A DNA stretch of 27,226 bases from a virus (IMGVR_UViG_3300021964_007824:1-27226); one strand, 5' to 3'. Positions 2,570 through 20,592 are shown, counted from the first letter of the stretch. Notes: a model not told the origin generated them from the sequence alone. Numbers and translations: made by a program.

Positions 2570-3250
2570 ATGTCTAATATAACAGACCACCAAAGATACG
2601 AAGACGTAATCATTACAGAGGTAACTAAAGTAGATAGTAAAGGTTGGGTTGGGATAAAGACAGAAGAACATGGTGAGATAAGGTGTAAGTCTAACTTAAG
2701 GACTAAGCTAGGTCTCAAGAAGAAATGGGAGGGTGACCTGACTGTATGGGTCAATCCCAGTAATAGCACTGTGTGTGTAGCCTTTGATCAGAAAGCTTGG
2801 AAGGCTACTGGTGATGACTCAAAACCTAATGGTCAATGGGAAGTCACATTCAATAATAATCCATATGAAGCAGAAGGCTTTGTATATCTTATCATTGAAA
2901 AGAGTACAGGAAAGAAATACATAGGTAAGAAGTCTTATTGGAACTATAGTAAAGGTAAACGAGTAAGACAATCTAATTGGAAGACCTATGCTTCTTCTAG
3001 CTCAGAGATATCTGTTAAGGTAGCTGATAATAAAGATGATTATGAATTCATTATGTTAGCAGAAGCACCAGATAAATCTGCTTTAAATTATTTAGAAATA
3101 AAATCACAGATTGAGTATGAAGTTCTCACTTCGATAGATAAGAACGGAGAGAAAGTCTTTTATAATAAGACACTTGGTAGTGAGAAATGGATGTTAACTA
3201 AATCATTTATAGAGGAATACAATGAACGCAACACAACAAAAGCGTCCTGA
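2570..3250 (+). CDS. Putative GIY-YIG-type endonuclease
   Basis: A 226-aa protein with two parts. Residues about 10-75 look beta-rich and may be an OB-like nucleic-acid-binding part (unproven). Residues about 103-205 resemble phage GIY-YIG endonucleases: FVYLI (104-108, in place of GIY), KYIGKK (116-121), a basic/aromatic stretch, SNWKTYASSSSEI (135-147), and a later helix with a glutamate (NYLEIKSQIEYEVL) where the catalytic Glu is expected. Its place between the 5'-3' exonuclease and the primase-helicase suggests a job in host-DNA breakdown or recombination, possibly in place of T7 gp3; a homing endonuclease is the alternative. The start has a GAAAGGAAAT Shine-Dalgarno sequence 3 nt upstream of ATG. 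The 3' end overlaps a short basic ORF. Confidence 0.72.
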   Translation: MSNITDHQRYEDVIITEVTKVDSKGWVGIKTEEHGEIRCKSNLRTKLGLKKKWEGDLTVWVNPSNSTVCVAFDQKAWKATGDDSKPNGQWEVTFNNNPYEAEGFVYLIIEKSTGKKYIGKKSYWNYSKGKRVRQSNWKTYASSSSEISVKVADNKDDYEFIMLAEAPDKSALNYLEIKSQIEYEVLTSIDKNGEKVFYNKTLGSEKWMLTKSFIEEYNERNTTKAS

Positions 3251-5908: not shown

Positions 5909-8026
5909 ATGCAGGACATAAAAGAGTACCTCCTCAATAAAATAAGAGGAGATGATCTAGGAGTAAAGCCTAGAAGAAATTTACAGCTCATGCGTATGAT
6001 TGATACGGATGGCGTTGACATGTTAGACTTTCTAATAGATGACATGATATCCTACGCCAGAAAGGTAATTCAACGTTGCTTTAAACGAAATAAGGTTGAA
6101 GGTGAGTCAGCAATAACTCAAGCTTCAATGGCAGTAGGTAAATATATAATAGAAGGTTGGGATAGCTCCAATGTAAACTTCAGAGACCATGTACGAGTAG
6201 GTGATCTTATCATTGAAGGTTTCGTTATGTGTGGCTATCTAACTATATCAGTAGGACATATGAAAAGTCGTAAGCCAGTGACCATACATGCCACAAGTAA
6301 GTGGGGTGAAATGGAAGTAATCACTGGCAAGACTACTTGTATAAGTGCTACGCCAATTCCTCCCATAACTAGTTTATTCCAAGACAATGGTAGACCAGTT
6401 ATAAAGACTTGGGAGAAAAATAAAGAACAAAAGTTCCTTAAGTACCTTGATAAGCCATTTGTAAAGGCAATAGATAAGCTACAAGCAACTAGGTTTATAG
6501 TTAACTCTGATGTGCATAAAGCTATCCTAGAGAACTGGGATATGTTTATTAGTAATGAGGAGTATAACGGTGAAGACAAGAATGAGAACGCTAAGCTCTA
6601 TCAACGTCAAGCTTCTAAGAATAGAGAAGTCAAAGAGGTTATGGCTGCAGCGGATAAATGGTTAGATAAAGAGTTTAGCTTTTATCTAGATGCAGACTAT
6701 AGAGGTAGACTATATTATAGTGAACCGTTCTTTAACTTTCAAGGAGCAGATATAGCAAGGAGTCAATTACTCTTTGCCAAAGGAAAACTCTTTGATGAGA
6801 CAGCTAACTTCTGGTTAGCAGTACATACTGCTTGCTCATTCAATCAGTCATATAGTATAGATCAAATACCTAATTGGGCTTCTGTAGATTATAAAAGTAT
6901 ACTACAAGAAGAAGAGCTAGATACTATATCGGTAGATAAGATGACACTAGAAGATAGAGCTAGATGGACTCAAGAGAATATGGATGTTATCCTAGAGATG
7001 GGTGAGATGAGAATCTTTGCAGAAGAAGCAGAGAAGAAAATAGCATTCATGGCTTGTTGTATTGAGTGGTATAAGTACTCTCAATCTAAAGGCGAGTTCT
7101 ATACTCAATTACCTATACCTATTGATGGTGCTAACAATGGTTGGCAACACTTAGGTGCTATGTCTAAAGATGCTCTTACAGGTAGACTAGTAGGATTAAC
7201 TGCTGAAGAAGTACCTAATGATTTCTATGTGCAAGTTGCAAAGAGATTATGTGAGAGGATGCCTGAATGGTTTGAGGAAAGGCAGATGCCTATGAAACAT
7301 ATTAGGAAGGGCATAGCTAAGAGAGGTGCTATGACTAGAGCTTATAGCTGTGGTCAAAAGAAAATGTCAGAGTCTATGTATAGTGATTGTTATCAATTTG
7401 GTTACACTAAAGATTACAATATCAACACATGGGATTGTGATGAGCTTAGTAATCAAGTGATACGAGCTATACAAGAGGTCTGTCCAGGACCACTAGATAC
7501 TATGAGATACCTACAACGACTAGCTGATAAAGAGATATCTAATTGGCTAGACACTTATGGTACTGATAGAGGTCGAGGTATACAATGGGAATCCGAATCA
7601 GGCTTTCCAGTGATATACGAATGTTATCGTACTAGACCTGCAAAGGTAGACTGTTACGGATTCAATACACCAGATGGTGAACTGAGATTCAAGCATGTGA
7701 TAAGAGAGAAGACTGATATACCAGATAGGCGAGGCTTTATGTGTGGTATTAGTCCTAACTTCGTTCATAGCTCTGATGCAGCTCATATGGCTCTTGTAGT
7801 AGCCAATTGGGATGGCGAGTTCGGTGCAGTACACGACTCATTCAGTGCTCATGCTAGTAGGGTTGAAGACCTTATGGTAGAGGCACGAGATAAGTTCGTT
7901 AAGATATACGATAAAGAAAACTTTTATGACTCAATTCCATTTGGAAGAGGTTATGAAGGTGAGCAACCGACCATCGGTGCTTTAAATATAAATGAAGTAG
8001 TCCAATCGGATTACTTCTTCTGTTAA
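5909..8026 (+). CDS. DNA-directed RNA polymerase, single-subunit T7-like
   Basis: Phage RNA polymerase expected to transcribe later phage genes from its own promoters. The 705-aa product is shorter than T7 gp1 (883 aa), mainly at the N-terminal promoter-binding side. Core motifs are in order: DYRGR (263-267); motif A PIDGANNGWQH with catalytic D406; motif B K467-x3-K471-x3-M475-x3-Y479, where the nucleotide-binding Lys and the ribose-selecting Tyr are present but the usual leading Arg is Lys and the Gly after Tyr is Ser; motif C VHDSF with catalytic D643. SPNFVHSSDAAHM (615-627) also matches the T7 family. It is the last gene of the rightward block, whereas in T7 the polymerase gene comes first. 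It has its own sigma70-like promoter, and its stop codon merges into the terminator. Confidence 0.95.
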   Translation: MQDIKEYLLNKIRGDDLGVKPRRNLQLMRMIDTDGVDMLDFLIDDMISYARKVIQRCFKRNKVEGESAITQASMAVGKYIIEGWDSSNVNFRDHVRVGDLIIEGFVMCGYLTISVGHMKSRKPVTIHATSKWGEMEVITGKTTCISATPIPPITSLFQDNGRPVIKTWEKNKEQKFLKYLDKPFVKAIDKLQATRFIVNSDVHKAILENWDMFISNEEYNGEDKNENAKLYQRQASKNREVKEVMAAADKWLDKEFSFYLDADYRGRLYYSEPFFNFQGADIARSQLLFAKGKLFDETANFWLAVHTACSFNQSYSIDQIPNWASVDYKSILQEEELDTISVDKMTLEDRARWTQENMDVILEMGEMRIFAEEAEKKIAFMACCIEWYKYSQSKGEFYTQLPIPIDGANNGWQHLGAMSKDALTGRLVGLTAEEVPNDFYVQVAKRLCERMPEWFEERQMPMKHIRKGIAKRGAMTRAYSCGQKKMSESMYSDCYQFGYTKDYNINTWDCDELSNQVIRAIQEVCPGPLDTMRYLQRLADKEISNWLDTYGTDRGRGIQWESESGFPVIYECYRTRPAKVDCYGFNTPDGELRFKHVIREKTDIPDRRGFMCGISPNFVHSSDAAHMALVVANWDGEFGAVHDSFSAHASRVEDLMVEARDKFVKIYDKENFYDSIPFGRGYEGEQPTIGALNINEVVQSDYFFC

Positions 8027-8081
8027 AAAAAAATACCCCACAAGGTTTCCATAAGGATTCCCTGTGGGGTGCGTTTATTTT
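8025..8081. terminator. Bidirectional hairpin terminator between convergent blocks
   Basis: ACCCCACAAGG (8035-8045) pairs with CCCTGTGGGGT (8060-8070): eight bp, one A/C mismatch, then two more G-C pairs, with a 14-nt loop. For leftward transcripts the stem is followed by nine U (the A-run 8025-8033), a very good intrinsic terminator. For rightward transcripts it is followed by GCGTTTATTTT, weaker but usable. It separates the RNA polymerase gene from the last leftward gene. Confidence 0.88.
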
Positions 8082-8322
8082 AAGGTAATAATTCCATGAT
8101 TTGTCGCTTAGCTTTAGCTCTTAATCGACCAGCCTCTGCTCTAGCTTTATCTCTAGGCATACCCCTATCTATAAAACCAGATACATTTTTAGCGTAGACA
8201 TTATCTAACATCGCAAAATTAATTCCTTTTGTGTATGCTAGATTAGGATCTAATTGAAATTCTTTAACAAATTCCATATCATCAATATCAAAGCCCTGAA
8301 GGGCTAACGCATTATAATTCAT
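8080..8322 (-). CDS. Hypothetical protein (80 aa), last gene of the late block
   Basis: An 80-aa soluble protein, acidic at the N-terminus (DIDDMEFVKEF) and strongly basic near the C-terminus (RDKARAEAGRLRAKAKRQ), probably helical. No family recognised. A perfect AGGAGG lies 6 nt upstream of the ATG, overlapping the end of the 1220-aa gene, so it is almost certainly translated with that gene. It ends at the shared terminator. Possible roles include a partner of the upstream virion polymerase candidate or a minor virion component, but nothing in the sequence decides this. Confidence 0.75.
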   Translation of the reverse strand: MNYNALALQGFDIDDMEFVKEFQLDPNLAYTKGINFAMLDNVYAKNVSGFIDRGMPRDKARAEAGRLRAKAKRQIMELLP

Positions 8323-8331
8323 AATTTCCTC

Positions 8332-11300
8332 CTAATTATATTGATACATAATAGTCTTTAATAACTGATTATATATTTTCTTTCTAGCTGCTTTAGCTTC
8401 AAAGGCTAGATTCTCAAGGCTAGTTCTTAAGTTAGTTTCTTTATAAAATATTTCTAAGATTTCTTTTAATGTTTCATTCGTAATAGAACCAGTACCGTCT
8501 GCTTTCCATCCATCATTAATTGCAAACGCAAGAATTTTTCTTTTATTATCTGGAGTTAAGTTAATTGGTTTTTTATATTTACGACCACGAGGTCTTCCAG
8601 TTCCTACTCCTCTTTCTTCTGCAGTTTTAGTTCTTAATTCTGCTAATTCAAATTCAATTCTAATTAATTCATCATGAACTGCTCTATACTTAGAATCATA
8701 ATTCATAAGCTGTTTACCTTTAGGATTATCCATTAATGTTTTAGTAACATTTTCAAAGGCATTATCAATTCCTTTTAATATTTCTTTTCCTATTGAGTAA
8801 GACATATTAACTTCTCGAAATTGTTGATTAATAGTCGAATGATATAGCTTAACAGATGAAGCATCCGTAATTATTGCATCATGAATTGGTATAACAAATG
8901 CAGGTGATCTTCTATTTAACGCATCTATATTAGCCTTATAAATAGTCTTTGCCATTATAGCTCCATCAATTTGCTGTACCGTTAATACTGGTAATTGATT
9001 AGCTACTTCTTGACCAAATCTCCTGTTAGTATCATCTTCCCTTTTCCATTCAGCATAACCATCTTGGTTCTTTACCCTTATTAATTTCTTTTTCTTAGAT
9101 TTAGCACTCCCTGTAGCATATCTTTTAGTCAAAGGGATAAACACTGAGCCTTCTGGAGTCGCAACCTCTACTGTTTTAGCTTGACCAGTAATAGGATCAA
9201 GCATTGGCTTATAATCGTATGAACCCATATAAATATCAGTACCTAGCGGACCTTTCATTTTAGGAATTACACCTAGCTTAGCCCACATATATCCAGCTTC
9301 TTTAAATATCTTTTGATTTCTTAAATTTAAAGTCTCCCTAAGTGTTTCGGTAATAATATCATTGAGATCACTAATCATATCATCTCGACCATATCCCTTA
9401 GCATTTGCCATGATTAAACCTTCAAATATTTGAGGGTTTTTATCTATAAAATTAATAGCAGTTTCTTCATTAAATCCTTCATATTTAGCATAAGATGTTT
9501 CCATTAAGGGTGTTTTAGAAAGTTCTTTACCAAGAGTTTTTAATGCCGATTTATCTTCTAATAATTTAGCTCTAAATGATAGCCAATAAGCTAATCTATC
9601 TTGATCTGTTGCAAACGCAACTGAGATTCCTTGCTCTATTTTTTCTAAAAATCTATCTCTAATATCTCCGAAAGGAGTAACAACATCCCCTGAAGTATAC
9701 ATTGCACCTACTAATTGTAGGATATCTCGTCTACCAAATTGCATAGCTTGTATTGCAATTCCATTTTGTTTTCCATCGTGTTGAGTCTGAGATTTTGCTT
9801 TGAATGAAGTTCCATTCTTTCTTGCGACATCAAAATCATAAACATCCATATAAGACTGATAAGGATAACCCCATTCACCAGCCATTCCATTTCCGTCAGG
9901 ATCAAATAGTTCATTAAATAATTCTTGACCTATACGTTCTTTAAACTGTTGTAATGTTTGTGGCTCTTGCTTTGAAGCTTCATAGGCTTCTTTAAGTAGC
10001 TTGCCTTTCTTTACCCAATTTAAATAAATAGGATCACTAGGATTACTTAATATTGATAATGAAGTATTTAAGATTGTGTTATAAGTAAGGTCTTCTGTTC
10101 TTTGTGCTCCTAAGCCTGTCATTTTGCTTTCATACATACGACTACTAGGAGGAAGAATATTCTTTCCTATTATATAAGCCCAGCCTTTGTATGTATCAGT
10201 CTTAGTGTCTTTGTTTGGATCAAGAGTAATTGCTACTGCATTACCAACAAACATCCTTGCAACTTTATTTAGCTGAGAATTAATATCAGTATTACGTATG
10301 AAGTATCTTCCTACTGAAGATGCATGAAATTGTTTATTATAATATACGCCTCCATTTGTTTCTTCTGCGGCATATTTTTTTAACTTTAATAACTTCTTAG
10401 CCTCTCTAATCATAACAAGATTAGCCTGTTGTTCAGCCCTTTCTACAGGCAATAACTTTTTTGCATGATTAAAAGCTTTCATCCAATGAGCTTCATCAAG
10501 ACCTAATGTTTTAGCAGCATCTCCTTTAGACCAACGTCTTCCAGGAGTTCCTTCATCTCTAAAGCCTAAAACAGTTTCTCCATCATCAGTGATAATAACA
10601 GAATCTATTAATTGATTAGCCATATTATATCTTTCATCAACGACAGTTAATGGCATACTTTTAAGGAGTTGCTTAACAGTATCTTCAATGTAAGTGTTAT
10701 AAGACATTTTATTTGTTTGAGATACTGAACCTCTTTTTCTTTCTCCAGCAAATCTAGCTCTACTAGGTATATCTAGACCTGGAACTTTAGATCTAAAAGT
10801 AATATCTCTAGATAATATATCATCTAAAATACTTCTATTATTTTGAAATACCATTTCTCCTTTTTCTGAAATAACAATCATATCATCTTCAATACCTAAT
10901 TCTTTATTATTTTCTTTAGGTATTTTTTGAATCCAACCAAGATTACTTAATGTTTGAAAAAGAACTGCATCACCTGCAGCAATAATATTAGGTCTTAACG
11001 TTTCTCCGAAGCCTCCAAATCCAGTTTGAGCACCTGGAGCACCTGGTATCCCTAATGCCTTAGGGTTCTCAACTACGCTGTTTAATATCCTAGTAAATAA
11101 ACCTTTTCTTAAATCAGAGGCATCAATTAATTTATTTTGCAATGAAACTTTTTTAACCTTATCTTTCATTGCTCTATAGTTTTGAGCAGTCAATTCATTT
11201 TGAGCAAGCATTAGTTCAGGTTTAGTTACTAATTCATCTTCTTTATTAACAAGATCTCTCATAACCTCTAATATAGACTTAAGAATATTATTAGCTAAAT

Positions 11301-11994
11301 TAGGGCTTATTCTTTTAGTATTTGTATCAATTAGATTTGAATTTGAAAGTATATTTAATATTGCTTCACTTTCTTTTGTTTGATTGTTAAAGAAAGGAAG
11401 TGAAGTTCTATCAAATTCATCTTGAACTAAAATACCATTGTCAATAAAAGAACTAACATCATCAATAGTAGATACAGGGGGCTCTACTGATTTAGTATTT
11501 TGAAGTCTAGCTTTTAAAACATCAGGACTAGTAGTATCAAATAGATCAGGTGTTGTCTGATCATAAATACTCTCGTCTCTTTCAATAGCTTGACCCATAG
11601 CTTCATAAGCGGTTTTTTTAGTCTTGTCAAAGACTTGTTCACCAGTTTCATCTGTTCTTAATATTCCACCAGCTTTTCTTATTTGATCAGAAAGAACGTC
11701 AAAAGGTAATCCTCCTTCTCCTTCTTCTGTGGCTGATTCAAATTGTTTATCGATATCTTTTAATCCAGGAACAATTCGTTTAGATTGTGCTTGTACTTCA
11801 GTTATGTCTTCAAAAGTACGACCTTCAGTTATTCCAATATCGCCTCGATCAACCCCTGTATAAAACTCTTCGTCAGTAATAGGGGTCGCTTCAGTATCTA
11901 TTGAAACATCTTTACGATCTTGTAATAATTTTTTGCTGTCTCTTAATCTCTCTGAGATTGATTTAACATTTAGTCCGCCTACATTTATTGTCAT
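8332..11994 (-). CDS. Putative virion-associated RNA polymerase (N4 vRNAP-like)
   Basis: A 1220-aa protein encoded in the late virion block, directly after the giant ejection protein. The middle has single-subunit RNA polymerase motifs in the right order: SSVGR (559-563, the TxxGR element of N4 vRNAP, followed by INSQLNKVAR); motif A HDGKQNG with D740; motif B K823-x3-K827-TPL-M831-x3-Y835, where the leading Arg is Lys and the Gly after Tyr is Ala; motif C PIHDAI with H1038, D1039. The spacing D740-K827 (87) is close to T7 (94), and Y835-D1039 (204) lies between T7 and N4. About 430 residues precede the core. The tail after about 1090 holds an AT-hook-like GRPRGRK. By analogy with N4 it would be packaged, ejected and transcribe early genes. 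N4 vRNAP is about 3500 aa, so this is a much smaller version. A degenerate, non-catalytic internal protein is the alternative. The start has GGAG 7 nt upstream. Confidence 0.8.
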   Translation of the reverse strand: MTINVGGLNVKSISERLRDSKKLLQDRKDVSIDTEATPITDEEFYTGVDRGDIGITEGRTFEDITEVQAQSKRIVPGLKDIDKQFESATEEGEGGLPFDVLSDQIRKAGGILRTDETGEQVFDKTKKTAYEAMGQAIERDESIYDQTTPDLFDTTSPDVLKARLQNTKSVEPPVSTIDDVSSFIDNGILVQDEFDRTSLPFFNNQTKESEAILNILSNSNLIDTNTKRISPNLANNILKSILEVMRDLVNKEDELVTKPELMLAQNELTAQNYRAMKDKVKKVSLQNKLIDASDLRKGLFTRILNSVVENPKALGIPGAPGAQTGFGGFGETLRPNIIAAGDAVLFQTLSNLGWIQKIPKENNKELGIEDDMIVISEKGEMVFQNNRSILDDILSRDITFRSKVPGLDIPSRARFAGERKRGSVSQTNKMSYNTYIEDTVKQLLKSMPLTVVDERYNMANQLIDSVIITDDGETVLGFRDEGTPGRRWSKGDAAKTLGLDEAHWMKAFNHAKKLLPVERAEQQANLVMIREAKKLLKLKKYAAEETNGGVYYNKQFHASSVGRYFIRNTDINSQLNKVARMFVGNAVAITLDPNKDTKTDTYKGWAYIIGKNILPPSSRMYESKMTGLGAQRTEDLTYNTILNTSLSILSNPSDPIYLNWVKKGKLLKEAYEASKQEPQTLQQFKERIGQELFNELFDPDGNGMAGEWGYPYQSYMDVYDFDVARKNGTSFKAKSQTQHDGKQNGIAIQAMQFGRRDILQLVGAMYTSGDVVTPFGDIRDRFLEKIEQGISVAFATDQDRLAYWLSFRAKLLEDKSALKTLGKELSKTPLMETSYAKYEGFNEETAINFIDKNPQIFEGLIMANAKGYGRDDMISDLNDIITETLRETLNLRNQKIFKEAGYMWAKLGVIPKMKGPLGTDIYMGSYDYKPMLDPITGQAKTVEVATPEGSVFIPLTKRYATGSAKSKKKKLIRVKNQDGYAEWKREDDTNRRFGQEVANQLPVLTVQQIDGAIMAKTIYKANIDALNRRSPAFVIPIHDAIITDASSVKLYHSTINQQFREVNMSYSIGKEILKGIDNAFENVTKTLMDNPKGKQLMNYDSKYRAVHDELIRIEFELAELRTKTAEERGVGTGRPRGRKYKKPINLTPDNKRKILAFAINDGWKADGTGSITNETLKEILEIFYKETNLRTSLENLAFEAKAARKKIYNQLLKTIMYQYN

Positions 11995-12045: not shown

Positions 12046-15000
12046 TTATTGTTTACCAAATAGGTATTCACTTAAATCTTCATTTAAAGGATTCTTTAGA
12101 TGAAAAGCATCAGAGATTCCTTTTCTTGCAACTGGTACTGGTGCAACTCCAGGTAATGTTTTTCCAAAACTATTAATTGCTCTTTCAGTTTCGCCTTCAA
12201 TTAGTTGACCCATGCCAGTAAATACATTTTGAATATTCCTAGCTGCAGGACCAGCCTCACCTAATATAGCTCTTGAAAGATTATCAAGCCCTGTATCTCG
12301 GTCTGGATAAAGGGGTACTGCAAAGTCTAGCACTCTTTCATATTGACCAAGTATTCCTGATGCGTAGATAGCTCTTTGTACATATCGAGGACCATCTAGA
12401 TAAGGACTAGGCTCAAGGAATTTTATTAAGTCTTTTAAATACTGAGATGCACCTCCAAGACCTATCATAAAAATCATAAGAGCAAATGTATCATACTTTA
12501 CTTTAGTATTTCCTTTTCTAAGATTTCTATTCCATAATTTAGGAACTATATTAGCAGTAAAAGTACTTAAGAAACCATTAAACTGAGTTAATAATTGATA
12601 ATGAGGATCTTGAAAGAATAGAGGTCTATTACTAGCTCCTGGAAGTTGAACTCGTTCATTTACAAAACGATATATACCAGTTTCTATTTCATCATCTAGC
12701 GATGCGGCTAACTCTTGAACTCTATCAACAAGCTTTTGCTCATTAATTCTTAATTTATTTTTAACTCTTTCTATTGTGCCATCCTGATAACTTCTAGTTC
12801 TTGATTTAAATTCTCCACGAGCAATAGTTCTTAATAATTGTTCTCTAGGAGAGATACCCTTAAGCTGATTAATAGCCTTGCCTTCTTTATCGTATACTGG
12901 CATAGTTTCAAATTCTTTACCAACCCTAGGTTTAACTTTAGTTGTCACATCAAATAAAATATCAAGAGGTGATTGTCTGTTTTCAAAGGTATTATCTGAT
13001 AAATCAAATAAACTATCTCTCAATAATTCATCAATGCCAGATACATATTGATCAACAGACTCAACATCTATTCCTAATTCTTTTAATTGATTATAAGTTA
13101 ATCTTTCTCTCTCAGTAAATTTATCAAAGTCAAAAGCATTTCGATCACCTGTAATTTGATTATACCTTCGAGGGGCTAATCTTAATATACTAAAGTTAGA
13201 TTTAATAAAGTCTAAACCAATAGCAGCATTTAATCTTCTTTGAAATTGAGTTATCTTTTGGATACCAACTCCTTTAAAGAAAGCTTCATGTGCTCTTAAG
13301 AATGCAATATCTCTTTCTCCTGTAGCATATCTATCTACCACGGTATTTTGATCTGTAGCTAATCCTATTTGCTTTAAAAGCTTTTCTGTATTCTTTACAT
13401 CAGCTTTTAATGCTTTATTAAAAATAGATGCTAGATCTTTCACCATAATATCAGTTGCTCTTTTAAACTCCTGATCATCTTTTAAATTGAAATAGACCAT
13501 AGCTGTTTCTGGAATAGAAGCTATTGCAGCCAAAGGTAATCCTGAAAATATAGTCCAACTAGTTAAATAACGATTAACAGCTGCCCATTCGTTACTAGCT
13601 ATTCTATTAAAATTACCATGGGCACTATCAATTATAGCCTTAGTGTAATAAGCAAATTGTCTAATATCTTTCTCATCAAGATTATTTAATCCTGCCTGGG
13701 TTTCTTTTTTAAGGTCATCAAATAACTGATTTAATTTCCAACCACCATCACCAAAATACTCAGCACTTGAAACAAATTTAGATATCTCTATTTGATTTCT
13801 ATTTAATGCTTCAAAAAGATTTTGACTAGAAAATTCTTCAAATCCTTTTTTATTATAGAGCATTTTAAATTTAGGATTAAAAGAAAAGTTTTGATAAGGT
13901 TTACCATCAACTAAAGAAAATTCTTCATTTATAGAGCTTGTACCTTCTCTAGAAATAGTGATATACATTCTTTCAGCTTCTTCTTTAGTTATATTTTTAG
14001 TTCCTATAAGCCACTTTTTAAACTTAACAGGATTTCGTTTAACTTTTTTCCAATCAAAGCCTTGATTCGTCCACCAATAATCTGGATCATACTCATCATT
14101 TATATTTTGATTTCTTTCTTTTCTAACTTGTTCAGCATATAATTGAAAGCTTTTATCATATGACGCTTTTATTTTAGAAGCCGCAATGAATAATTTAGTC
14201 ATCCTATCAAATTCTGCTTCACTAGTAATAGAATCCTTAGATGTAATATAATTACCTGTCTTTTTATCTTTAATTATTTTCTTAAGTAATTTAAACTTAT
14301 CAGTAATTACTCTTTGGGTTTTACCTGTTGGTCGATTATTGCTATCTAATTCATTTACTACTTCAGAATTATTATTAATATAATCAATAACATCTGTGAT
14401 CTCATAAGTTTGAATGCCAAATTTATCAGCAAGATGCTCTTCGATTACTCTAATTCTTCTTTCTAAATCAGCTTCTTCGTCTTTATTTCGAGGAACTGTA
14501 CGATTTAATTCTTGATAGAGCTTAAGTAAATTTGGACCAGTAATACTTCTCCTTTCTCTTGAAGCTAATACATCTAAGTCATGAATTGTTGTTGCAAATA
14601 AGATAGCTTTTATTGCTTTAAAGTTACCTGATTTACCAAATTCAATTAACTCTTTTGATATATCAACTGCAGAGCTAGCAGTCAAAGTGTCACCAGTTAA
14701 ATCCATTGCAATATCGTTTTCATCGACATAAGATTTTAAATCACTAACAATATCTCTAGCATACTCAACAAAGTTTCTTCCAGTTAGATAAGCAGCACTA
14801 GTTAATCCTGCTATTCTTGACCATATTTTTAAAGCAATATCAGAGGTTACTAACTTTTTATGATCTAACATATAATTTTCTACTGCTCTAAATAACTTAG
14901 CTACATTAGTAGTTGCATTAACTACAAAATCTTTTAAGCCATCACTGTTAGCTATAAAGTTATAAGTTCCTCTATCTGTATCTTCATGTTCTCTAGCAAG

Positions 15001-17457
15001 ATCTCCGACTATTTGTTTATTTTTCTTATCGGTCTTATCAAACTTAGTGTCTGGAAGTGAGGGTATATCTTGATGTAATTGAGGTTCGTCAATTCGTTCT
15101 AGCTGATATTGAATAGCTTTTAACTCAGCAGATATTGGTCCTAGATCTGAAGGAAAAACTTTACCTTGCTCCTTTCTTTTTTTATATTCATTAAATAAAG
15201 CGGCTTTTCGAGCTTGTAATTCTTTTTTACTTAGCTCATTAACTATAGAGCCATCTGATAATACAAATCTTTGGTTAAGAGCAGACATAGTAAAAAAGCT
15301 TCCCTTATTTAAAGTATGTTCTTTAGTTATCTTAGAGTTATCAGGTTTGATTACTGTTTGACCATTTAAAACTTTAAGTCTGATTCTTAATGCATTAATT
15401 TTTAATATAAGATCTGAATAACCTAATTGGTCAGTTGCCCCTGCATCTTTCATAGCTTTAAGTTGACTTTCTAATTTAGGTAAAAGATTTTCTATTTCTT
15501 CTTTAGTAAAGCCTTTAGAATTAACGGTCTGATTAACATTTCCAGTATTAAAATCAATACCGTCATAAATACTTTGTTCATGATAATTCCCTTGATTAAG
15601 GATATGCTCTGATCCGTCTTCTAACTTAATTTTTTTAGTACCTAGTTCACTAATTGCTATTACAGTAGCTATAATAGGGTTACCAGCAAGATCATAAACA
15701 ATTATTTTATCTTTATTAATTTCTTCTTTTAAATCTAGTAAGTCTCTAACTTTAATAGGTTTAGTTGGAGTTCCCTCTACTAATATTTTTTTATGAGGCT
15801 GACCATTAGTGTCATAAACAGTTACTGTAGGTAAACCATCAGGATTAGAAGGGTCTGCTCTATCTTTAACGTTAGCCTCTTGTCGAGCAATATCTTGATC
15901 AACCCTTCTGTTAGTATCGTTTAGTTTACCTGCTTTCTCATCTTCAAGTCTCTTCTGTTCAATAGGAGTTGATCGAGTATCGTCAGCCCTCAAATACATT
16001 TTCTTTGTAAGTTGATTTTTACCTTGTCGATATATATTTCCTGCTGAACCATATGCCCCACCAAGAATTGCACCACCAATACCTGCGTTCATTAATCTAT
16101 TTTTTAATTCTTCATCAGTAAAGGTAGTATCTGATCCTGCTGTAACTGCTACTGCTTGAGTTAACTCTTGACCTATTTCAGTAAGCCCTTCTCTAGTCAT
16201 ACCTTTAGCAGCTGCTTTACCAAATGTTGCAGCTGATAGCTTAGCAAAATCTTTACCTAAAAATTTAACTTGTTCTTTAATTGCTCCCTTTAATTGTGCA
16301 TTTAATACAATTTCTGCTTGTTGAATTGTCATGCCTTTGTTGTTATTAACAATATGTTTTAAGGCTCTATTACGACCAGCTACAGAAAGTAAATCTACTG
16401 GTTGCATTAAACCTCTTAGACCTACTCTTTCTAAAGTAGCCTGTAATACTCCTGACATATTAGCTATTACAAATTGAGATAGACCTTTTTCGCCTTCCAT
16501 CTCATTCCAAGTATGACCAGCATACACCATAGTTTGAGGTATCTGAGACAGTATCATTCCTATTGCTGGAGTAGTAAGAGCTCCTAAAGGAATTGCTGCT
16601 GCTAATGATGAAAAACCTGCTATCATATATGGAGCTGCCATACCTGCAGTGTTCATAGCATATTGAAAACCATCGGTAATGCTGTCTACGTCTTTATAGT
16701 TAAGAAGCAACTGAGGTGCTTGCGACATTTCATCACGTATTCTTATGACATTTCTTTCACCGAAATTTTCAATCATCTCAATATCAGTCATCTGACCTAA
16801 AGCATCAATATATCCATATAATCCTTCAAATACTCCGTCAGCTCCAACTCCAAAACTTCTTGCACCTGAATTCCAAAATCCTAGAGGTTGATTATCGATT
16901 GTTTTAGAAGGATCACGAAAGGCAACCCCACTATGAATATTTTTATTATATTCTCTTTCATTAAGAGCTTTCTCTTTAAAACGAAGAGGGATAGTAGCCA
17001 TAGTATTACGGTACTCTTCACCTATCTTGTCATACGGAGTATTAGAGTTACCTAACAGGGCATTAGATAACTCCATGTCTCTTTGAGCTAATATATTTTC
17101 TTCTGAAGTAAAGGAATCTACGCTAGCTATTCCTTGTTTGTATAGTTCGGTAGCCGCATTTTCTCCTTTATTATTTATAAAGTCAATTATACGTCTTTCA
17201 CCTTTACTCTTATCAATCTCATCTGAATATTTGGCAAAGAAGTTTCCTGTAGAAAGAAGCTCGCCTACCTTCTTAGTTTGAAAGTCAGCTCCTATTTCTC
17301 CTCTCTGTACTATCCAATTACCATCTTTATCTTTTATGACTTTATCTGTTTCTAAACCATCGAAACCTCTTACTCGAAATCGTTCTCCATCTTTATTAAC
17401 TGCAGTATCTGAATCGATTAACGTTAAAGATTCTCCGTATTCATCTAAGATATTCAT
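12046..17457 (-). CDS. Giant internal virion (ejection) protein with N-terminal nuclease-like domain
   Basis: At 1803 aa this is the largest gene here and most likely the T7 gp16-type protein that is ejected and helps form the DNA channel. Residues about 11-135 read as a staphylococcal-nuclease-like domain: IDSDT (D15, D17, T18), FRVRGFDGLET (R28, D33, E36), R88/R89 in KGERRIIDF and YKQGIAS (106-112) line up with SNase residues 19-22, 34-44, 87 and 104-109. A long hydrophobic, Ala/Gly-rich stretch follows at about 265-315, with another at 457-473 (NAGIGGAILGGAYGSAG). The C-terminal third contains NERVQLPGASNRPLFF and a hydrophobic helix at about 1657-1668, a layout typical of the large ejection proteins of marine podoviruses and of phage polyvalent proteins. 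AAGGAG precedes the ATG and overlaps the upstream gene's end. Ejection role inferred from size, hydrophobicity and position. Confidence 0.82.
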   Translation of the reverse strand: MNILDEYGESLTLIDSDTAVNKDGERFRVRGFDGLETDKVIKDKDGNWIVQRGEIGADFQTKKVGELLSTGNFFAKYSDEIDKSKGERRIIDFINNKGENAATELYKQGIASVDSFTSEENILAQRDMELSNALLGNSNTPYDKIGEEYRNTMATIPLRFKEKALNEREYNKNIHSGVAFRDPSKTIDNQPLGFWNSGARSFGVGADGVFEGLYGYIDALGQMTDIEMIENFGERNVIRIRDEMSQAPQLLLNYKDVDSITDGFQYAMNTAGMAAPYMIAGFSSLAAAIPLGALTTPAIGMILSQIPQTMVYAGHTWNEMEGEKGLSQFVIANMSGVLQATLERVGLRGLMQPVDLLSVAGRNRALKHIVNNNKGMTIQQAEIVLNAQLKGAIKEQVKFLGKDFAKLSAATFGKAAAKGMTREGLTEIGQELTQAVAVTAGSDTTFTDEELKNRLMNAGIGGAILGGAYGSAGNIYRQGKNQLTKKMYLRADDTRSTPIEQKRLEDEKAGKLNDTNRRVDQDIARQEANVKDRADPSNPDGLPTVTVYDTNGQPHKKILVEGTPTKPIKVRDLLDLKEEINKDKIIVYDLAGNPIIATVIAISELGTKKIKLEDGSEHILNQGNYHEQSIYDGIDFNTGNVNQTVNSKGFTKEEIENLLPKLESQLKAMKDAGATDQLGYSDLILKINALRIRLKVLNGQTVIKPDNSKITKEHTLNKGSFFTMSALNQRFVLSDGSIVNELSKKELQARKAALFNEYKKRKEQGKVFPSDLGPISAELKAIQYQLERIDEPQLHQDIPSLPDTKFDKTDKKNKQIVGDLAREHEDTDRGTYNFIANSDGLKDFVVNATTNVAKLFRAVENYMLDHKKLVTSDIALKIWSRIAGLTSAAYLTGRNFVEYARDIVSDLKSYVDENDIAMDLTGDTLTASSAVDISKELIEFGKSGNFKAIKAILFATTIHDLDVLASRERRSITGPNLLKLYQELNRTVPRNKDEEADLERRIRVIEEHLADKFGIQTYEITDVIDYINNNSEVVNELDSNNRPTGKTQRVITDKFKLLKKIIKDKKTGNYITSKDSITSEAEFDRMTKLFIAASKIKASYDKSFQLYAEQVRKERNQNINDEYDPDYWWTNQGFDWKKVKRNPVKFKKWLIGTKNITKEEAERMYITISREGTSSINEEFSLVDGKPYQNFSFNPKFKMLYNKKGFEEFSSQNLFEALNRNQIEISKFVSSAEYFGDGGWKLNQLFDDLKKETQAGLNNLDEKDIRQFAYYTKAIIDSAHGNFNRIASNEWAAVNRYLTSWTIFSGLPLAAIASIPETAMVYFNLKDDQEFKRATDIMVKDLASIFNKALKADVKNTEKLLKQIGLATDQNTVVDRYATGERDIAFLRAHEAFFKGVGIQKITQFQRRLNAAIGLDFIKSNFSILRLAPRRYNQITGDRNAFDFDKFTERERLTYNQLKELGIDVESVDQYVSGIDELLRDSLFDLSDNTFENRQSPLDILFDVTTKVKPRVGKEFETMPVYDKEGKAINQLKGISPREQLLRTIARGEFKSRTRSYQDGTIERVKNKLRINEQKLVDRVQELAASLDDEIETGIYRFVNERVQLPGASNRPLFFQDPHYQLLTQFNGFLSTFTANIVPKLWNRNLRKGNTKVKYDTFALMIFMIGLGGASQYLKDLIKFLEPSPYLDGPRYVQRAIYASGILGQYERVLDFAVPLYPDRDTGLDNLSRAILGEAGPAARNIQNVFTGMGQLIEGETERAINSFGKTLPGVAPVPVARKGISDAFHLKNPLNEDLSEYLFGKQ

Positions 17458-17460
17458 ATA

Positions 17461-20400
17461 TTACTCCTTCTCTAAGGCTGATATTATTTTAAGAGCATCA
17501 GGGTCATTCTTAACAACTTGATTAACCCAATTTATAAAGTCATTCATGCCTTTAGTTTTAGTTCCAATAAAATTTTTCCTAAGACCTTTTTCTTCTAAGG
17601 CTTTATCAGACATTTTTGAATATTTATTCCATATTGTTTTTAATTGATTTTGAAAATTTTCTGCTACCTTTACTAGCTTATTTTCATCTACATCATTTAA
17701 CTTTAGCATATCGAATAAACTGTTTTGGACTTCTTGTAATCTTTCTGCACTAGTATCTTTTACTAAATCAGGAGTCCAAATACCTCCAGTCCTAAAGGTA
17801 ATCATTCGCTTATTAAAGAATTCTTTTAGTGAACTAGGTTTGTCAGCTCCTGTTTCACCTTTTAAATAACGTCTATAAGCTTCGTAATAGTCGCCCATCG
17901 CTGCTTCTAGCTCTGAAATTATTTCTGCTCTTGCAACTGTATCCTTTTTAAACTTTTGATTTTTCATCTCATTTCTTAATAAAGATTCAGCTTGATTAGA
18001 TACCTTTCGTATTTCAGATTGATTTATTTGTTTCTCTTCATCAATATCTTTATTAACAAGAGCTAAATAATCTTTTGAAGCTTTAGCAAAATTATCTTTA
18101 ATGGTAGTTGAATCATGTATCTTAGGATCAAGAGTATCTAGTCTTCCAGCCACTTGAGGATACGGTATTAACTTACCCTCTATTCTAGCTGCTGTTGTTC
18201 CATCTGCCATCTCAAACATTTGAACAACCTTTTGAGTGTTTCTATCAAACATTGGTGTCAATGGTTTTTTAATAGATGAACCTTTCTTAACTAATTCACT
18301 ACGATCTCCATTAATTAAAAACCTTTGAATAGAAGACTGTTCATAGTTATCAGTAGCGGCTTTACTATTAGCCCATTTTTTATTAGCATCCATTTGAGCA
18401 TCTATACGCTTAAGATAATTTTTACCTACATAATTAACAGAGCTACCATGCTCATAGCCTAATGCTCTTGAACCTAAATAAGCTAAAGCTGCTCTAGTTA
18501 ACTCTTGAGTATCAAAGAATTGAGAGAAAAAACCTTTAATATAATCATACGTTGTAGGATCTTCTTTAGCCTTCTTTGCACCTAACTCTGTTACTATTTT
18601 TGTATTCTCTTTAACTGCAGGCGAATCATTAGTTTGTGTTACTAGACTATTCACTATTTGTTTTAATTCAGGAGAGGTATTATTAACACTTCCAGGAATT
18701 AAACTTTGTTTTAGTTTTTCCTTCTCATCTTCTAATGCTTTTACTAAAGTAGAGTTATTATTTTTCTTAGCCTCTTCTATTTTAGCATCTAACTCTTTTG
18801 TTTTATTTGTAACAATTCCAGACTTTTCAATAAACTCTGCTTTTTTATCTGATGCTTCCTTATCTGCTATGTATTTTTTATAAGCCTTATCTTGTTTAAC
18901 TGCTTGATTATAGTCTTCCATATAAAAGTTATAAGATTTTTCATTGCCATCCTTAGCAAATTTCTCTGCTAACTTTTTAGGAATATCTTCAGATACTCTA
19001 TTAGGATTAACAGGTTGAACTGCTCCTGTTGAATCAAGTATAATATCATCATCAACTCCTAATTCAAATCTTTTAATCTCAACTGGATTCATTCCAGAAT
19101 ACATGTCTTGATCCACTGGTTCTGGAATCTCATTATCACCAGTACTAGCTTGAGCCGACATAAATCCACTTTCTATAGGTGTACTGTCATACACGGCTGG
19201 TCTAGGTTCAGGCATAGGGATTTCACCCATTATTGCATTCACTTTACTAGCATACTCCTGACCACGAGGACCGAGTTTCTCTTGTCCAGATCTAGCTTTG
19301 AGAACATTGCTAAGACCTGAATGGTATGCAGTAATTATTTCGTCTCTACTTAAATGAGGATTTCTATCAGCTAACTTTTGCATATATCTTTTAGCAAAAT
19401 CCTTAGCTAATACTGGATTTTTAAGATCTTCAAGAGCTATAGGCTTAACTCCATATCCAGGATTTTGTGCTGTAGATGGTAATATTTGCATTGGACCGAT
19501 AGCACCTGCTTCAGACTCTGCATTTACATCCCCTCCAGATTCAACTTGCATCATAGCATTAACAATGTCGTCTGTAATCGTGACTCCTCCTTCATTAAAA
19601 TATTTAGGAGGTTTACCTAAATAAACTGAGTCATGCATATCTGAAGCTTGATCCATAAAATTTTGTACAAGATCAGTAGAACGAGGTGTACCCTCTGCAT
19701 TGTATTTAGGGATTTGTGATACTGTAGATCCAGAAGAACCACCTATTAAAGAGTTTTGGGTTGGTTGCAAAGCACTTACCGCTTGATCTGAACTTAAATT
19801 AAGATTATCTTCAAGAGCAGTCATCATCTGATTATTAGGCAGCCCCATATCTTTCATTTTTTCTACTTCGCCTTTAACAAGGTCATTATTAATTGGCTGA
19901 TAAAGTTTACTAACTTGATAAGGTCTACCATAGTAATCTGTATAAGTGTTTTTACTTCCATAATTTATTTGATTTTCACCAATAACACCTCCTTCTTGTA
20001 GATAAGAACCATCATCTCTGAAGTTCATTAAGTTTTGACTGTTAAGTCTTGCATAATAGTCTGCTTCAGTGGGTGTTTTAAACCTCATATCTGGTTGCGG
20101 TATTTGACCTTGATATAACATCTGCTCTATTTGCTGTGGAGTATATTGTATACCGTTATATATACTAGGTACATGACCATAGCCATGTGTATTATCTCCA
20201 ACAGTAATTCTTTGCTCAGATACTTTATATCCATCAGGTGTTTCATAGACTTTTTTATCGGTAACTGTTCTCATACCAGTGTCTTTACCTGCCGATTTCC
20301 CTTCTACCTTAGAACCCTCTGCATTATAACTAGGTATTGGTCCACCTTGTTTCTTTTGAATAGCACGACCCATATCATTAATATCATCTAATAGGGGCTG

Positions 20401-20592
20401 AACCCCAGGAAGTCTAGATGCCTCTGCGTTAATTACATTTTCTCCTGGAGTTAACCATGCAGGTACTGTATCAGTTCCTCTTGGCTCTCCAGGGTGATCT
20501 GGCTTAGGTACTTCGTTCATAGAAGGTACATTAAATTCATAAGAAAACATATTACCATGGCGGTCTTTCTGTGTAAACTTTTTTAGTTGCAT
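17461..20592 (-). CDS. Internal virion protein with lytic transglycosylase (SLT) domain
   Basis: A 1043-aa virion protein expected to cut peptidoglycan locally during DNA entry. The SLT domain lies at about 338-450: catalytic Glu351 in MQVESGG, then NAESEAGAIGPMQILPSTA and ITAYHSG, the classic goose-lysozyme-like pattern. In T7 the SLT domain is at the N-terminus of gp16; here it is in its own large protein next to the giant gp16-like protein. The N-terminus has GTDTVPAWLTPGENVINAEA (39-58), a motif seen in tape-measure and other virion proteins. Repeated Y/F-N-x-x-G elements occur at 89, 297 and 332. Residues about 540-680 and 850-1043 are highly charged and helical or coiled coil. The ATG overlaps the previous stop (TAATG) and has AAGGAG upstream. 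Confidence 0.9.
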   Translation of the reverse strand: MQLKKFTQKDRHGNMFSYEFNVPSMNEVPKPDHPGEPRGTDTVPAWLTPGENVINAEASRLPGVQPLLDDINDMGRAIQKKQGGPIPSYNAEGSKVEGKSAGKDTGMRTVTDKKVYETPDGYKVSEQRITVGDNTHGYGHVPSIYNGIQYTPQQIEQMLYQGQIPQPDMRFKTPTEADYYARLNSQNLMNFRDDGSYLQEGGVIGENQINYGSKNTYTDYYGRPYQVSKLYQPINNDLVKGEVEKMKDMGLPNNQMMTALEDNLNLSSDQAVSALQPTQNSLIGGSSGSTVSQIPKYNAEGTPRSTDLVQNFMDQASDMHDSVYLGKPPKYFNEGGVTITDDIVNAMMQVESGGDVNAESEAGAIGPMQILPSTAQNPGYGVKPIALEDLKNPVLAKDFAKRYMQKLADRNPHLSRDEIITAYHSGLSNVLKARSGQEKLGPRGQEYASKVNAIMGEIPMPEPRPAVYDSTPIESGFMSAQASTGDNEIPEPVDQDMYSGMNPVEIKRFELGVDDDIILDSTGAVQPVNPNRVSEDIPKKLAEKFAKDGNEKSYNFYMEDYNQAVKQDKAYKKYIADKEASDKKAEFIEKSGIVTNKTKELDAKIEEAKKNNNSTLVKALEDEKEKLKQSLIPGSVNNTSPELKQIVNSLVTQTNDSPAVKENTKIVTELGAKKAKEDPTTYDYIKGFFSQFFDTQELTRAALAYLGSRALGYEHGSSVNYVGKNYLKRIDAQMDANKKWANSKAATDNYEQSSIQRFLINGDRSELVKKGSSIKKPLTPMFDRNTQKVVQMFEMADGTTAARIEGKLIPYPQVAGRLDTLDPKIHDSTTIKDNFAKASKDYLALVNKDIDEEKQINQSEIRKVSNQAESLLRNEMKNQKFKKDTVARAEIISELEAAMGDYYEAYRRYLKGETGADKPSSLKEFFNKRMITFRTGGIWTPDLVKDTSAERLQEVQNSLFDMLKLNDVDENKLVKVAENFQNQLKTIWNKYSKMSDKALEEKGLRKNFIGTKTKGMNDFINWVNQVVKNDPDALKIISALEKE

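Follow-up and report, generated by a model that had tools for sequence, protein, structure and literature searches.

The window analysed here, a stretch of 27,226 nucleotides of viral DNA (IMGVR_UViG_3300021964_007824:1-27226), encodes a 1220-aa protein that is almost certainly a single-subunit RNA polymerase (RNAP). Judged from its sequence, it is probably a compact and separately encoded form of the virion RNA polymerase (vRNAP) that lies outside the Schitoviridae as defined. Packaged polymerases of the single-subunit kind have been presented as a speciality of that family, and as giant proteins. We infer that the 1220-aa polymerase is active, that it is packaged and ejected, and that it uses hairpin promoters. 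The course of infection that we consider likely as a whole is as follows. A catalytically competent polymerase of a compact, previously unrecognised family related to N4 vRNAP would be made late and packaged with the adjoining ejection proteins, and would enter the host together with the DNA, either carried along or threaded in. It would transcribe the phage's first (early) genes there, with short DNA hairpins as probable promoters, until the T7-like polymerase of 705 aa, synthesised inside the cell, took over.

The reading frame at 8332-11994, which the original prediction gave with no strand, is real and lies on the minus strand. It and its neighbours are arranged as follows.

5909..8026 (+): single-chain T7-like RNA polymerase of 705 aa with 15 cysteines, transcribed towards the virion-type gene
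8036..8070 (no strand): strong bidirectional hairpin terminator where the two convergent operons meet, folding z -4.29
8080..8322 (-): 80-aa ORF, final ORF of the late operon
8332..11994 (-): predicted compact virion-type single-subunit RNA polymerase, 1220 aa, no cysteine
11485..11994 (-): residues 1-170 of the 1220-aa protein, an N-terminal tail outside the structure model
12046..17457 (-): large ejection-type protein, 1803 aa, no cysteine, phrog_6958 'virion structural protein'
17461..20592 (-): ejection-type protein with an SLT transglycosylase domain (PF01464, E 5.3e-15), 1043 aa, no cysteine

On the minus strand runs a late block whose final large gene is the 1220-aa one; the 1803-aa and 1043-aa genes lie upstream in it. 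The separate 705-aa T7-like polymerase that had been foreseen is present (PF00940, E 7.7e-52), and the terminator sits between this convergent gene and the 1220-aa gene with its 80-aa ORF. Relatives carry an element similar to the terminator, and several near-complete ones have a small ORF in the position matching that of the 80-aa ORF. A GIY-YIG (SegE-like) endonuclease gene lies amid the replication genes at 2570-3250 of the window (PF19835, E 4.4e-23).

A direct IMG/VR search with the 1220-aa protein returned a single close relative (83%), and tblastn against isolated phages gave no match. Using the neighbouring 705-aa polymerase as bait led to Roseobacter phage CRP-7, and an alignment of such polymerases led to 78 further loci. 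Among the 57 loci with enough downstream sequence, 56 have a convergent family member beside the T7-like polymerase, the family gene lying 259-462 bases past the T7-like gene. Full-length family members in the alignment are 1156-1385 aa long. PDB and Pfam searches with a single sequence or with small alignments found nothing, and hhalign of an 8-sequence family alignment against N4 alone gave nothing useful. The polymerase relationship was resolved only by the deep alignment built via the neighbouring T7-like polymerase.

With a 38-member alignment, the profile-profile comparison proposed alongside the original prediction places N4 vRNAP as the closest sequence relationship of the family among polymerases (hhalign E 3.6e-18, probability 99.0, covering the TxxGR element and motifs A and B), against E 3e-9 over 547 columns for T7-like polymerases. 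Motif C was aligned with N4 vRNAP separately, from two window-type sequences (E 4.2e-4), and the family profile also detects CRP-7 gp33 (E 9.6e-16). The PHROG annotated as 'virion RNA polymerase' (phrog_2206) is matched by the window protein at E 6.6e-8 and by 5/38 family members (best 3.9e-11); T7-like phrog_414 is matched by 8/38. Moreover, tblastn of one relative's protein against 50,697 phages, a collection that includes thousands of T7-like polymerases, retrieved only Schitoviridae-type vRNAPs (19 records, best E 2e-7). A Pfam scan of the 1220-aa protein gave no match, PF00940 included, and in the family-gene frames of several relatives PF00940 scored below threshold (3.3e-6, 3.2e-5).

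The original prediction hung on a right-hand polymerase fold, and the predicted structure matches solved single-subunit RNAPs, N4 mini-vRNAP among them. An AF2 model of residues 171-1220 (pLDDT 79.6, pTM 0.80) had as its top Foldseek matches yeast mtRNAP (6.7e-15), N4 mini-vRNAP (1.4e-13) and T7 RNAP (4.2e-13), with moderate TM-scores (0.41-0.46) and large rmsd; a BFVD search returned viral N4-type and T7-type polymerases. The omitted tail can be aligned in two near-identical window-type proteins and not in distant relatives. A poorer model of a CRP-7-type protein (pLDDT 64.8) retrieves single-subunit RNAPs too (best 6.9e-8), and the two models are not independent because the CRP-7-type alignment included window-type sequences.

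N4 gp50 consists of a membrane-inserting N-terminal domain (NTD), the polymerase (1007-2101) and a C-terminal domain (CTD) with HExxH that damps activity (PMC12633501). Compared with N4 gp50 (mini-vRNAP PDB 2PO4, 3C3L), the 1220-aa protein has in common the single-subunit fold, a TxxGR-type element instead of DxxGR, an NxQxxKxxR element with counterparts of K437 and R440, motifs A, B (KxPL...Y) and C, and the lack of cysteine. Both genes are the last large gene of a late operon, adjoin ejection proteins and converge on replication genes. They differ in size, the window protein being, as originally estimated, about one third of N4 vRNAP (1220 against about 3500 aa), and in domains, since it has neither NTD nor CTD. 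On sequence grounds it is a polymerase alone, with a tail of about 170 residues at its N terminus; with the N4 NTD and CTD absent, the family barely exceeds the N4 polymerase core. HExxH occurs in 1/38 family members compared with 11/11 N4-type sequences, and is absent from the window's 1220-aa and 1803-aa proteins. The partner polymerase differs as well, being the gp15/gp16 heterodimer in N4 and a single-chain T7-like polymerase here. We considered the 1803-aa neighbour as supplier of the missing NTD and CTD; its residues 374-444 match the N4 NTD weakly (hhalign E 1.9e-4, probability 47.8%), as does its CRP-7 counterpart (1.6e-4). With a weak NTD-region match only, and no CTD or HExxH, the idea of a split protein stays a lead.

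Cysteine is nearly missing from the family (5 in 46,912 residues; 0 in the window protein), as it is from N4-type vRNAPs (0 in 11) and from the family of the 1803-aa neighbour (1 in 15 proteins); the 705-type polymerases have 8-17 each (mean 13.9). If cysteine occurred at the rate seen in the other genes of the window, a protein of 1220 residues would have none with a probability of 4e-7. For N4-like vRNAPs, the absence of cysteine has been put forward as a requirement for crossing tail and periplasm (PMC3715699). Other late virion proteins are likewise cysteine-poor; low cysteine is therefore not specific to ejection and marks the company of virion proteins more than ejection itself. An active polymerase could instead be made late and stay unpackaged, serving a late gene class or replication primers in the cell. 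The late-operon position shows late expression only, and the N4-type domains thought to aid delivery are absent, the membrane-inserting NTD being one that may have such a role. But the 705-aa polymerase is already at hand for middle and late genes, and a site among ejection-type genes together with near-zero cysteine, as in N4 vRNAPs, points to delivery, so we regard an unpackaged polymerase as improbable. Operon position, the absence of cysteine and analogy with N4 argue that the 1220-aa polymerase is probably packaged and ejected.

The elements of the catalytic core lie at the following positions.

10306..10320 (-): TxxGR-type element SSVGR (559-563), R563 invariant, Ser replacing the Asp of T7 DxxGR
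10255..10281 (-): NxQxxKxxR element (572-580), K577 and R580 being counterparts of N4 mini-vRNAP K437 and R440
9760..9780 (-): motif A HDGKQNG (739-745) with D740, aligning with N4 D559 (ADGVTNG)
9487..9528 (-): motif B K823xxxK827TPLM831xxxY835, aligning with N4 R-xxx-K670-NPLTITI-Y678
8953..8976 (-): QQIDGAIM helix preceding motif C, counterpart of N4 IGTGDGMMM and T7 HSQDGSHL
8866..8889 (-): motif C PIHDAIIT with D1039 (PIHDAI 1036-1041), aligning with N4 FDG, D951

Every motif by which the protein was first recognised occurs once, at the residues proposed, and D740, K827, Y835 and D1039 align with N4 catalytic residues by profile or motif. C-terminal to TxxGR is the additional N4-like element INSQLNKVAR (571-580); the role of K437 and R440 in N4 mini-vRNAP has been described (PMC4496689). 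The ordered motif pattern was found in 0/20,000 composition shuffles of the 1220-aa protein, using a regex composed after the family had been seen, which makes conservation the better test. In 38 relatives that span 14-85% identity, the invariant residues include R563, K577, R580, D740, G745, D777, R779, D1039 and N1056; with the CRP-7 branch added, R563, K577, R580, D740, R779, D1039 and N1056 remain so. Most of the 38 aligned sequences have motif B as [KR]xxxKxP[LI]MxxxYG, and Ser, Thr, Asn or other residues take the position of the DxxGR Asp.

Podovirus ejection proteins are often non-enzymatic, and the 1220-aa protein might be a polymerase-derived one that has lost catalysis and acts only as a structural or DNA-threading part. 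In its favour, Arg replaces the motif-B lysine (K827) throughout the CRP-7 branch and in the window-type relatives L037, L059, L070, L038, L051 and L081. But the window protein retains this lysine, and proteins with no more than 14-20% identity to it preserve both catalytic Asp residues, the Arg of TxxGR, the K/R pair and, with few exceptions, the Tyr of motif B. Such conservation at that distance fits active enzymes, and we judge loss of catalysis very unlikely. Two deep-branch members, L085 (L085:3770-7927 -, residues 967-1074) and L089 (L089:10617-14717 -, residues 965-1066), have a NADAR-like insert between motifs B and C (PF08719, E 1e-4 and 1.3e-3, under the curated cut-off); that of L089 is also similar to a protein of a crAss-like phage (6e-11).

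An unrooted tree built on the catalytic core unites T7-like with 705-type polymerases in a single clade (support 1.0). It separates N4-type vRNAPs from all others (1.0) and sets the family, together with CRP-7 gp33, on its own (0.79). Descent of the 1220-aa protein by duplication of the adjacent 705-aa polymerase, which two single-subunit polymerases side by side and weak detection of the 705-type by the family profile might suggest, is scarcely credible, since that clade excludes the family, which is closer to N4 vRNAP and has the DxxGR Asp replaced. As the tree cannot place the root, we do not claim that the family is sister to N4; as far as it tells, the family would be a lineage of its own and not a branch inside the Schitoviridae vRNAPs. 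The original label 'N4-type' thus holds for similarity, as read from the profile score, phrog_2206 and the tblastn of a relative, and probably for function. It does not hold for lineage, the family being apparently separate and without the N4 NTD and CTD.

An isolate with a homologue is Roseobacter phage CRP-7, whose gp33 (QBQ72826.1; 1235 aa, no cysteine) also lies beside a T7-like polymerase and shares the invariant residues, but is about 22% identical and has Arg for the motif-B lysine. It is a 'hypothetical protein' in its record and is not named as a polymerase in the parts consulted of the isolate paper (PMC6918029). T7-like (Autographiviridae) RNAPs, with PF00940, share the superfamily and the catalytic motifs with the 1220-aa protein, which differs in having no PF00940 match, no DxxGR Asp (SSVGR), no cysteine and a place in the late operon. 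Thermus phage P23-45 has a virion RNA polymerase fused to its tape measure protein (PMC10770324). It likewise pairs this with a second, non-virion phage polymerase, but the virion enzyme is a homologue of cellular (two-barrel) RNAP, of unrelated fold, and the tape measure fusion is a further difference. Schitoviridae are defined by three RNA polymerase genes, a giant vRNAP of about 3500 aa and the heterodimeric gp15/gp16 (PMC7650795). In the window, itself a fragment, and in each relative record searched, PF00940 finds one single-chain polymerase above cut-off, which is not the three-gene set of Schitoviridae, and in some records it matches the virion-type gene below threshold. The portal of a near-complete relative (L104 of G001, 12217-14391, minus strand) belongs to phrog_1216 (E 1e-81), as does that of N4, and its capsid protein to phrog_1328, not phrog_1357. 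The common portal PHROG suggests shared ancestry with N4 for part of the virion genes.

A published survey of N4-like phages removed polymerases below 2,500 aa (PMC10654107). With this filter, and with no Pfam model that catches the family, such surveys would miss it. At about one third of the size of N4 vRNAP, this marine family would reveal what is truly indispensable to a virion polymerase, and it provides a compact enzyme for which single-stranded hairpins may serve as promoters. A packaged polymerase would explain how such phages could begin transcription without the host polymerase. As CRP-7 is an isolated phage, the idea of packaging is directly testable.

The window, which begins within the DNA polymerase gene, does not reach the early region, and the data on promoters come from relatives. 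In near-complete relatives the early block lies between the terminase and replication genes. Perfect short hairpins of the form RGRYA-N4-TRYCY, for example AGGACAATCCTGTCCT, stand directly upstream of the ribosome-binding sites of early genes. This pattern, defined after inspection, occurs about 15 times in early regions, compared with 3 times (expectation 1.2) across some 200 kb of other sequence. Three of the five pairs vary on both sides (11 sequences, 98% paired), and a scan of the collection found the element in four more contigs, all of the same phage group by terminase. Some hairpins lie immediately 3' of a terminator-like hairpin. One near-complete relative has 21 sigma-70-like promoters in its early region, no excess over the expectation of 21.7. 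The promoters of N4-like phages are short hairpins, with loops of 3 nt, that precede early genes (PMC4496689; PMC3715699), and the candidates differ in having 4-nt loops; they are absent from several relatives (G005, G021 and others) and from CRP-7. Given the loop, the post hoc pattern and these absences, hairpin promoters stay a lead, and we put the chance that the hairpins are promoters of the vRNAP at roughly even; they may instead be RNA stems or protein-binding sites. An earlier pattern that required a TAAC tail showed only slight enrichment and was dropped, and two of the families from the pattern scan (L134/135/137/140 and L141) were chance matches without the flanking architecture. Rfam had no match in the hairpin regions, with only a sub-threshold mir-451 elsewhere.

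A broader reading is tentative, and we hold it somewhat less likely than its opposite. In it, the family would be a third lineage of phage single-subunit RNAP, compact and packaged, with polymerase and ejection domains split (1220 + 1803 aa), hairpins of 5-6 bp with a 4-nt loop and handover to a T7-like polymerase. N4 vRNAP would then be a fusion, or the arrangement here a fission, and the N4 NTD and CTD would be dispensable.

Two further elements were seen in the relatives. One is a composite early element, in which an upstream stem-loop or terminator is followed by a covarying GGACA-N4-TGTCC hairpin and then a ribosome-binding site:

L102 (G001), 161-225, 640-700 and 2930-2990: composite early element, with homologues in L107, L109, L118, L120, L121 and L123

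The other, in G005 (L111) at about 9950-10031 and 18688-18785, is the sequence ACTCTATAAGGGGTATATAGGAG, which is repeated and may be a promoter for the T7-like polymerase.
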